DNA of 64,000 nt. It comes from Streptomyces jeddahensis. Lineage in GTDB: Bacteria; Actinomycetota; Actinomycetes; Streptomycetales; Streptomycetaceae. Under the pieces are notes generated by a model. That model was not told the DNA's origin. It saw nothing but the letters and a program-made list of their open reading frames with translations, and ran no database searches. The DNA lies in assembly GCF_001642995.1 (NCBI RefSeq), contig NZ_LOHS01000107.1, forward strand, positions 1-64,000. The letters are read 5' to 3'. This document shows, piece by piece, positions 58,913 to 61,251 of the stretch (the first letter of the stretch is position 1; every line of letters begins with the position of its first letter). The position numbers and the translations under genes were made by a program.

Positions 58913-59476
58913 CTAACAGGAGCCGGGAGGGAGCACGCGGCACGTCAGGCCTCCGATGGCTGCGATCCCGGCCGGGCCGACCGGGGAACCGGGGGTCGGC
59001 CAGAGCTGGAACAGCCACTCTTCCTGATGGTCGACGGCGTCCCGGTGCCGGGGTGACCGTCGATGAGCGCGCACGCGCCAGACGCCTCGCCGACCGAGCC
59101 ACACGGTGGCCACGTTGTCTCCCATGAGGTTCTGCAACTGGAGTTCCTGGCTCTCCAGCAGCGCGAAATCGCATTCCATGGCTTCGTACGCGGCCCACTC
59201 GGCGGCGATGACGGGCTCGGAGTCGTAGACCTCGAGGCTCACGGATGCGTGACGGATGTCCGAGACGGCGCTGCGTGCGACCAGACCGGAGGACGTGCAG
59301 ACCAGCATCCTGCGGTAGTCCTCGTCCCGCCACAGCCGCAGACCGTCGTCCTGGTGGCAGGCAGGGGCGTCGTAGAGGAGGAAACAGCCGTGGTCGACAC
59401 GGGTTCGGGCCCATACGGTCTGGTGGGGCGACGGTGAACTGGGCGTCGACGTCTGCGAGGACCGGACTCTGCTCAT
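58913..59476 (-). CDS. unknown protein
   Basis: A 187-aa soluble protein without signal or membrane segment. The start MSRVRSSQTSTPSS at 59476 is my choice. The central part reads LRLWRDEDYRRMLVCTSSGL and SVSLEVYDSEPVIAAEWAAY, the end DHQEEWLFQLWPTPGSPVG. I do not recognise a family. The pattern of alternating strands suggests a small alpha/beta domain. It converges with the hydrolase and lies downstream of the membrane-bound sigma factor gene on the same strand (158-nt gap). Confidence 0.65.
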   Translation of the reverse strand: MSRVRSSQTSTPSSPSPHQTVWARTRVDHGCFLLYDAPACHQDDGLRLWRDEDYRRMLVCTSSGLVARSAVSDIRHASVSLEVYDSEPVIAAEWAAYEAMECDFALLESQELQLQNLMGDNVATVWLGRRGVWRVRAHRRSPRHRDAVDHQEEWLFQLWPTPGSPVGPAGIAAIGGLTCRVLPPGSC

Positions 59477-59634
59477 GCTCTCCTGCCGGGCTGCGTTGGA
59501 CGAGGACACGACGGGTGTCGTGTCCTCTGTTCACGCAGCGGGAGGGCGCGTCCGCCGGTAGACACTCCTGTTTTTTTGTGACACGGCATCACATCACGGC
59601 ATTACCACCGTTATGGGCGGCAAGACGGCGTCGT

Positions 59635-61095
59635 TCAACAGGGGCGGGAGGGGCGGGCCCAGGCCGTCTTGGTCTGCATCGGCATGCCTCCCCCGCCGTT
59701 GCCGAGGGCGGCGTTCTCGGCGCGATGGGGTTGCCGATCCGCGGATTCGGTGCCGCGGGGGCCGGCCGGTGCCATGGCCTTCCCGGGCAGCGGGGGCGGG
59801 GCGTTCGGCGGTACAGCCATCGGCGGTACGGCCATGGGTCCTCCGCCGGCTCGCCCGGGTGTCGGAGGGATGGTCAGCTGGGGGGCGAGACCGGCGACGG
59901 GGAGCTTGCCCCGATCGGCGGGGCTGCCGGGCCCTCCTGGCTTGCCTCCGTCGGAGGGCTTGCCCTTGTCCGTGGGCTTGCCTCCGTCGGCGGGCTTCCC
60001 CTTGTCCGCGGGCTTGCCTCCGTCGGCAGGCTTGCCCCCGCCCGCGGGCTTGCCCTTGTCTCCGGGCTTGCCCTTGCCTTTGGACTCGCCCTTGCCTTCG
60101 GACTTCCCCTTGCCTTTCGGCTCGCCCTTGCCTTCGGACTTCCCCTTGCCTTGCGACTCGCCCTTGCCTTCGGACCTGACGTGGCCTTTCGACTCGCCGT
60201 CGTCTTTCGACTCGTCCTTGTCCTGCGACTCGCCCTTGTCCCCGGACTCCCCGCTCCCCGAGGCGGCCGCCACCGAGGCCGACGGTACGGACGCCGGTGA
60301 CAGCGACACAGAGGCGTGCGGGGACACGGGCGCGTACCCGGACGGAACCGGAAACGGCGAGGGGCCGGAGCTCACAGCGGCGGTGGTTTCCGCGGGCAGT
60401 ACGCTCGGCCGTAGATGCTGCGGCGCCGGTTCCACCGTCGCCGGCACGGGTGCGATGACGACCATCACGGCCATCGCCGTCGCGGTCGCGGCCGTCGTGG
60501 CGGCGACAGCCGGGTATGCGGGGGCGAGCCGGGCCGCGTCCGCCGCCCATCTCCACCACACGACGACCAGCCCCAGCGCCGATGCCAGCACGGCCTTCAG
60601 CGTGCTCCTCGCACGGGCCAGCAACGACTCGGCAGTCCGGTAGCTGACCCCGAGCCGCCCGGCCACCTGTAAGACCGTGAGGCCCTCCGCTCGCAGCCGC
60701 AGAGCCCTGGCCTGACGCGTGGGCAGTCGTGACATCGCCTCCGCCGCCCACGCGGCCTCCGCCTGATCGCACACCCGCTCGTCGAAGGACGCCGCATCCA
60801 GGGAGGCGGGGAGGCGGGACCATCTGCGATGCTCACGGATGCGCTGCCGATGCGTGTCGGTGCACAGCCGCACCGTCACACGCACAAGCCACGGAGCAAG
60901 CCCTTCCGCGTCACCGCGGTAGGACTCGACTGCGCGGATCATCGCCTCCTGCACCACGTCTTCGGCGTCCTCCACGGTGGCCGTGCGTGGACGGGCGATC
61001 CGCAGCAGGGCTTCCCGCTGCTGCACCACCGCGTGCCAGCGCACTGCTTCGTCCGGCCCGCATCCGTCAATGCCGTCCTGGACACCCACCGTCAT
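59635..61095 (-). CDS. ECF-like sigma factor fused to a membrane segment and repeat tail
   Basis: A 486-aa protein. Region 2 is about residues 17-90 (VEDAEDVVQEAMIRAVESYR, WLVRVTVRLCTDTHRQRIRE) and region 4 about 112-165 (MSRLPTRQARALRLRAEGLT, LGVSYRTAESLLARARSTL). Immediately after come a weak hydrophobic helix (167-184) and a clear membrane span (about 195-217, AVAATTAATATAMAVMVVIA). A 265-residue tail follows, first Ser/Pro/Ala-rich, then KGKSEGKGE and GGKPADKGKP repeats (285-390), then Pro/Gly-rich. The sigma domain would face the cytoplasm and the tail the wall. The start is the ATG before TVGVQDGIDG. No anti-sigma gene is adjacent. Confidence 0.82.
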   Translation of the reverse strand: MTVGVQDGIDGCGPDEAVRWHAVVQQREALLRIARPRTATVEDAEDVVQEAMIRAVESYRGDAEGLAPWLVRVTVRLCTDTHRQRIREHRRWSRLPASLDAASFDERVCDQAEAAWAAEAMSRLPTRQARALRLRAEGLTVLQVAGRLGVSYRTAESLLARARSTLKAVLASALGLVVVWWRWAADAARLAPAYPAVAATTAATATAMAVMVVIAPVPATVEPAPQHLRPSVLPAETTAAVSSGPSPFPVPSGYAPVSPHASVSLSPASVPSASVAAASGSGESGDKGESQDKDESKDDGESKGHVRSEGKGESQGKGKSEGKGEPKGKGKSEGKGESKGKGKPGDKGKPAGGGKPADGGKPADKGKPADGGKPTDKGKPSDGGKPGGPGSPADRGKLPVAGLAPQLTIPPTPGRAGGGPMAVPPMAVPPNAPPPLPGKAMAPAGPRGTESADRQPHRAENAALGNGGGGMPMQTKTAWARPSRPC

Positions 61096-61128: not shown

Positions 61129-61151
61129 TGCAGAAGGGTAACGTTTCTGCA
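61129..61151. promoter_or_regulatory. inverted repeat upstream of the sigma factor gene
   Basis: TGCAGAA (61129-61135) and TTCTGCA (61145-61151) with a 9-nt spacer (GGGTAACGT). It lies 34-56 nt upstream of the sigma factor start, where an operator or the sigma factor's own promoter would be. It could bind a dimeric repressor. Confidence 0.45.
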
Positions 61152-61251
61152 CCCGCCTCGGTGACGGCTTCGGCGCAAGCTGACGGATAACGGGGGTACT
61201 GGCGGGCGACGAACTTGTCTGCAGGTCACGCGAGCGACATTGCCCAGAAAA

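Follow-up and report, generated by a model that had tools for sequence, protein, structure and literature searches.

The window that we analyzed, a 64,000-nt stretch of Streptomyces jeddahensis DNA, contains one gene (positions 59635-61095) in which a sigma factor seems to continue without a break into a hydrophobic region and a long repetitive tail. The locus raises the question of whether this is one regulatory protein, on which side of the membrane its tail would lie, and what it would switch on. A preliminary description of the DNA had placed a complete ECF-like sigma factor between these coordinates, and the open frame together with Pfam matches to sigma-70 regions 2 and 4, both above the curated cut-offs, bears this out (Table 1). 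TIGR02937 also matched above its cut-off. No match to region 3 was found with Pfam, and there was no Pfam match of any kind past residue 168, with only sigma and HTH families being matched. The presence of regions 2 and 4 with region 3 absent places the protein among the ECF (group 4) sigma factors. The closest solved chains by sequence are the ECF factors SigE, SigJ, and SigL, and the best Foldseek matches are ECF factors too, with low whole-chain TM-scores (~0.27). An alternative in-frame GTG start at 61152 would lengthen the sigma protein by 19 residues.

Table 1. Features of the sigma factor locus, with positions counted from the first nucleotide of the window.
Feature	Positions	Strand	Details
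Putative membrane-tethered ECF-like sigma factor, 486 aa	59635..61095	minus	ATG at 61095, stop at 59635
Sigma-70 region 2, residues 27-85	60841..61017	minus	Pfam PF04542, E 6.5e-10
Sigma-70 region 4, residues 118-166	60598..60744	minus	Pfam PF08281, E 2.3e-10
Hydrophobic segment 1, residues 165-185	60541..60603	minus	Apparent insertion energy -0.63; AlphaFold2 helix
Hydrophobic segment 2, residues 199-221, most likely membrane span	60433..60501	minus	Apparent insertion energy +0.9; charge asymmetry; predicted helix
Low-complexity Gly/Pro/Ala/Lys/Ser tail, residues 222-486	59638..60432	minus	Repeats at ~59939-60249
Upstream element, imperfect dyad GCAGAAACGTTACCCTTCTGC (coding strand)	61130..61150	minus	Core GAAACGTTAC conserved in the Streptomyces himalayensis locus (L059)
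Orphan 198-aa gene directly downstream of the sigma gene	58913..59509	minus	Also next to the sigma gene in L059

We considered a frameshift between the sigma part and the tail and ruled it out on codon-position G+C, the closest orthologue, and the wider family. Third-position G+C is 0.82 in the sigma part, 0.90 in the hydrophobic part, and 0.84 in the tail; such consistently high values indicate that sigma part and tail share one reading frame. The closest orthologue, in S. himalayensis (L059), shares both the fusion and the flanking genes, and its sigma part is 86% identical. Compared with this orthologue, dN/dS is ~0.23 for the sigma part and 0.27 for the hydrophobic part, suggesting that both are constrained. 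The host genome (8.45 Mb, 206 contigs) encodes two paralogues with 42-45% identity, a like layout, and Pro/Val-rich tails. The preliminary description had the sigma factor running in frame into about 265 residues of low-complexity sequence and named a frameshift, or absence of the fusion in relatives, as what would undo this; the open frame, its codon-position G+C, the orthologue, the two paralogues, and the family described below all uphold the fusion.

Matches at E 1e-15 or better are present in at least 103 of 392 Streptomyces genomes, and at least 82 have a match better than 1e-30; seven candidates were scored per genome, so these counts are lower bounds. Alignments at E <1e-30 mostly end at query residues 199-212 with 42-53% identity, and few end earlier. 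For the 21 genomes with weaker matches, alignments mostly end near residue 175 and the frames are short, representing mostly sigma-only relatives. Within the class, 28 of 246 genomes gave hits to a family profile (E 1e-20 or better); they belong to several other families, and the matching proteins are fused frames of ~310-450 aa in some and sigma-only in others. Our comparisons use 96 loci, comprising the genus matches at E <~1e-30 (93 within the genus, L059 and the window included) and three loci of a genome from another family (G085). The window protein shares the family layout of sigma domains, segment 1, basic loop, segment 2, and tail, and is homologous to the other members through segment 2. 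Copies of its own type are rare: one pattern-based scan of contigs and up to 392 genus genomes found two intact genes, those of the window and L059. In Streptomyces spinoverrucosus (L136), regions 2 and 4 are separated by a frameshift; this copy aligns as two fragments, at 60% and 75% identity, and has a tail that is not Lys/Gly-rich. We also note that three sigma-only Streptomyces loci (L029, L269, and L271) adjoin an oxidoreductase-like gene, as judged by eye, with no anti-sigma gene visible, and that a gene for a low-complexity Ala/Gly protein lies nearby in two of them.

The main branch of this family is tied to one type of mce lipid-import operon. YrbE-type permease genes lie directly downstream of the sigma gene, on the same strand, in 75 of the 96 loci (e.g., L131 4578-8951). 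Among these 75, an Mkl-type ATPase is encoded close by in 74 and Mce proteins in 69, some of the stretches ending earlier, and in 59 a co-oriented lytic transglycosylase gene precedes the sigma gene by no more than 500 bases. Products of the mce-linked copy in the host match ABC_tran, MlaE, MlaD, and SLT_2. Plasmid records gave two sigma matches, one without annotation and one on a plasmid of Streptomyces sp. NBC_00467, where the annotated order is lytic murein transglycosylase, sigma-70 family sigma factor, ATP-binding protein, two permeases, MCE, and MlaD.

A YrbE search of the genus separated two operon types, type 1 with at least 85% identity to the host copy and type 2 with ~69-75%; the search is complete for type-1 operons, and the type-2 operons are those among the best matches listed. 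Type-1 operons occur in 77 of the 392 Streptomyces genomes, and the sigma gene is just upstream in 75 of the 77. For the remaining two (G416 and G138), the locus is interrupted by a contig end: the G416 sigma gene lies at the extreme end of a contig with the permease on another, and the G138 contig begins shortly ahead of a frame containing the sigma tail motif, followed directly by the ATPase gene. No such sigma gene was found in the 10 kb read at each of five sampled type-2 operons, from five genomes. The mce-linked ATPase of S. coelicolor is SCO2422 (PMC1810536), and SCO2423 appears in a list of secreted proteins (PMC3087709); this species probably carries a type-2 operon, which may explain why a link between the sigma gene and the mce operon has been little noticed. 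We found no description of this link in Streptomyces in the literature searched, most of it outside subscription journals.

Exceptions to the mce position make up 21 of the 96 loci. Seven, hereafter the second group, are followed by a gene for a different protein; the one scanned (L133) contains a PepSY domain. The other 14, the window among them, lie elsewhere or are cut short. The window gene is not upstream of a type-1 mce operon and instead sits between a HAD hydrolase gene and the orphan gene of Table 1. We used the family tree, which has very long outgroup branches and unsettled bootstrap values, only to show that the mce-linked rows cluster; they do so without forming one clade (two changes).

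The upstream regions divide along similar lines. An element of the form CCACAAC N15 GGTAATGTC is present in 73 of the 75 mce-linked loci (at least 26 of 37 consensus positions, compared to a median best match of 22 in shuffled sequence). In 56 of the 73 it lies 40-59 bases ahead of the start adopted here. It occurs in none of the seven second-group loci and in one of the 14 others, an mce-type locus cut by a contig end. A tighter, exact pattern was found once each in nine of 16 genomes, always at the sigma gene (e.g., G000:C199:67615-67643), and was absent from the other seven, three of which have an mce-linked gene; the reversed pattern was not found. The element behaves like a dedicated promoter, and it could also be an ordinary one, read either by this sigma factor or by the housekeeping one. 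The textbook ECF pattern (GGAAC and a spaced GT) lies within 350 bases upstream in one of the 75 mce-linked loci, a count without a shuffled baseline. Second-group loci (L132, L133, L134, and L150) have a conserved upstream stretch of their own, GGTTAGGTTCCGTGCGG.

We found no match to the mce-branch element in the window lineage (18 of 37 positions, compared to a best of 23 in 20 shuffles) and dropped an autoregulated promoter of the mce type there. Upstream of the window gene is the imperfect dyad GCAGAAACGTTACCCTTCTGC, which would fall inside the frame if the GTG start at 61152 were used. The orphan gene begins ~125 bases downstream of the window sigma gene on the same strand; its counterpart in S. 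himalayensis is 80% identical and lies 112 bases downstream of the sigma stop. It had no match in the other 119 of the 120 genomes searched, nor in plasmid records, and its product has no Pfam or PHROG family and nothing above cut-off in NCBIfam. We see the orphan gene as the strongest candidate for a partner, or a first target, of the window sigma factor. Five neighbouring genes were scanned with Pfam and none encodes an anti-sigma domain, in agreement with the preliminary description, which saw no adjacent anti-sigma gene; the orphan gene is one of the five, and an MFS transporter gene is the sole envelope gene among them.

The tail of the window protein has 265 residues with 18- and 36-base tandem repeats and includes 28 Lys, for a net charge of +10. 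The preliminary description suggested a one-component design in which an external tail senses wall or polymer state; a specific sensing role for this Lys/Gly tail is not supported. Lys makes up 11% of the window tail and 5% of the S. himalayensis tail, which is of the GKPADPGKP type, and less than 5% of each of the other 91 family tails, so that two of 93 reach 5%. Between the two species, the two blocks of the tail share 43% and 50% identity and have dN/dS values of 0.83 and 0.27, respectively; the repeats make these alignments doubtful. As the Lys-rich tail is confined to the window lineage and diverges fast, we do not accept a dedicated polymer sensor; the tail may serve as a wall-spanning spacer. 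Family tails range from 110 to 265 aa, except for that of L139, at 400 aa, where the frame probably continues into the next gene. Another host protein (L005) has a PADPGQP repeat linker that resembles part of the tail and, by eye, no obvious signal peptide, indicating that repeat composition does not prove export.

Which side of the membrane the tail occupies depends on the hydrophobic region. The preliminary description gave the protein one membrane span; a membrane segment is indeed present, but there are two hydrophobic segments, both in predicted helices. AlphaFold2 models a continuous helix from residue 152 to 190, which extends the last sigma4 helix and contains segment 1, then a four-residue break and a helix at 195-212, where confidence is low (block means of pLDDT 53-63). 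The model of the mce-linked paralogue shows a like pattern, with helices at 157-187 and 198-211. Insertion energies, calculated with parameter values that were checked on three known helices only, are marginal, with medians over 44 family proteins of 0.2 for segment 1 and 0.8 for segment 2. Two segments, of which at least one is a likely span at these marginal energies, correspond to the C-terminal membrane helix or helices of ECF52, ECF48, and ECF53.

Two spans would leave the tail inside. Such a hairpin would keep both the sigma domain and the tail in the cytoplasm, where the basic tail would bind an internal polyanion or partner and the wall would not be sensed. It draws on the energies of the window protein, in which segment 1 has the more favorable insertion energy of the two, on the pair of modeled helices with their short break, and on the Lys content and positive charge of the tail. 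The family as a whole argues the other way. In the family consensus the loop joining the segments is rich in Arg, evidence against a membrane-spanning segment 1, and net charge over 15 residues is higher before segment 2 than after it in 91 of 93 family proteins (75/75 mce-linked, 6/7 in the second group, and 10/11 others). These figures leave out three of the 96 rows, namely L136 (frameshifted), L195 (cut by a contig end), and L223 (without the end-of-region-4 motif). Median charges in the mce-linked branch are +3 before and -1 after segment 2, and the asymmetry of the window protein itself is weak (net 0 vs -1). A more positive sigma side favors segment 2 as a single inside-to-outside span.

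Cysteines in the tails bear on the same choice. Outside the genus, we counted them in 15 rows, two of which represent one gene, and all 14 distinct relatives examined have an even number (2 or 4); L254 has an extra cysteine nearer the membrane, and the start of L275 is uncertain. Even counts fit disulfides outside the cell and an exported tail, with fewer than 14 independent cases because even counts are common by descent within groups. The relatives with even counts are L251-L257, L270, L272-L275, L138, and L223; several of their tails have a C-(x13)-C end that reads YIGC or similar and might form a small extracellular domain that Streptomyces lacks. Among 91 Streptomyces tails, 85 are without cysteine, three have one (window, L059, and L135), one has two, L139 has four, and L200 has 13, probably in a wrong frame. 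The charge rule and the even cysteines thus disfavor a cytoplasmic tail, and we consider an extracytoplasmic tail probable; the score of segment 1 leaves the hairpin as an unlikely reading that still deserves weight.

The window protein has four cysteines only, at positions 12, 78, 109, and 486. Cys78 and Cys109 are invariant in 43 of 43 aligned family rows; a redox switch formed by this pair was dropped, as sigma-only relatives also carry both, by eye.

The predicted continuity of segment 1 with sigma4 also suits a degenerate sigma/anti-sigma fusion of the ECF48/52/53 type, in which the recognizable anti-sigma domain has been lost and the hydrophobic helix folds back on the sigma domain. ECF52 has the same order of sigma domain, membrane region, and Pro-rich region, and ECF48 and ECF53 are described as similar fusions (PMC8999054, PMC5826349). 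Against this, region 4 extends to residue 166 while segment 1 already starts at 165, so that an anti-sigma domain would not fit between them, and the four cysteines of the window protein form no zinc-finger motif. Furthermore, we saw by eye no clear membrane anti-sigma gene within ~1.5 kb on each side of ten sigma-only loci (one without a called sigma gene), and we regard the degenerate fusion as improbable. The window gene might also be a decaying paralogue, its tail a product of neutral repeat slippage and the gene on its way to being lost. The scarcity of intact copies, the frameshift in S. spinoverrucosus, and a tail that is 43-50% identical where the sigma part is 86% identical would all be expected of such a gene, but the low dN/dS of the sigma and hydrophobic parts and the conserved gene order and downstream gene speak for retention, making decay very improbable.

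We lean toward a one-piece membrane-tethered ECF sigma factor whose tail lies outside the cell and whose sigma domain is freed by proteolysis and switches on its own locus. Segment 2 would span the membrane with the tail outside, holding the sigma domain at the inner membrane face and pinning sigma4 so that it cannot dock freely at the -35 element. Since the last sigma4 helix is predicted to continue into the hydrophobic helix, the tether itself would hinder DNA docking. We hypothesize that the tail, or its junction, becomes accessible to a site-1 protease in response to an envelope signal, after which an intramembrane protease would free the sigma domain to act on its own locus. M50 (site-2-type) protease genes are present in the host genome, and matches are also found in 14 of 14 control genomes. 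For the main branch, the target would be the mce lipid-import operon that the sigma gene heads; for the window protein, a rare relative with no mce link, the likeliest first targets would be its own gene and the downstream orphan gene.

It is also conceivable, although we think it improbable, that this sigma factor is itself the membrane receptor. Lacking an anti-sigma domain and a recognizable anti-sigma partner, it would act without being released, bringing RNA polymerase to the membrane and coupling transcription of the mce importer to insertion of its membrane proteins, with the tail reporting on the envelope; the window protein would then be a rewired copy, having a new locus, a new Lys/Gly tail, and a new partner gene.

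Whichever way the sigma domain acts, a membrane tether without a recognizable anti-sigma domain means that this family isolates the question of whether tethering alone controls a sigma factor. The tight link to one mce operon type in turn offers a regulator and a testable target for the lipid importers of Streptomyces.

In membrane-bound one-component regulators of the ToxR/CadC type, a single chain combines an internal DNA-recognition domain with an external sensory part. The inner part here differs in being a sigma factor, which must engage RNA polymerase. Fused membrane ECF sigma factors are known in Actinobacteria as ECF48, ECF52, and ECF53 and are described with zinc-finger domains (PMC8999054, PMC5826349) and expected to be under the control of built-in anti-sigma domains (PMC8999054). 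Among these, ECF52 (SCO4117 of S. coelicolor) likewise combines a sigma domain, a membrane region, and a Pro-rich low-complexity stretch in one actinobacterial protein, and proteolytic release has been proposed for it (PMC5826349, PMC8999054). However, in ECF52 a zinc-finger domain separates the sigma domain from the membrane, and the window protein has none by Pfam or by its cysteines; ECF52 ends in a carbohydrate-binding module, and the window protein has no such module, given the lack of Pfam matches past residue 168. SCO4117, moreover, adjoins atrA (PMC5826349), whereas the main branch of the present family is linked to mce operons. Among the frames inspected at eight zinc-finger matches in the host, no clear fusion of sigma, zinc finger, and membrane region of the ECF52 type was seen. 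ECF48 and ECF53 are also described with a zinc-finger domain that is absent here, the distinction being drawn from published descriptions.

Proteolytic release has a precedent in IutY and has been proposed for ECF48, ECF52, and ECF53 (PMC8999054, section 3.5). IutY (ECF243, Pseudomonas putida) resembles the window protein in joining sigma and membrane parts in one protein; it is activated by regulated proteolysis (PMC8999054). It is, however, a fusion to the anti-sigma factor of an iron-signaling system, and Pfam gave no such domain in the window protein. The same source counts at least 26 ECF groups with extensions, 15 of them still to be studied, and the family described here may already bear an ECF group number. 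We found no description of this family in the literature searched, mostly without subscription journals. Fused membrane ECF sigma factors are thus known, and what appears to be new, as judged from sequence and from published descriptions of the other groups, is a family without a zinc-finger domain that is linked to an mce operon.
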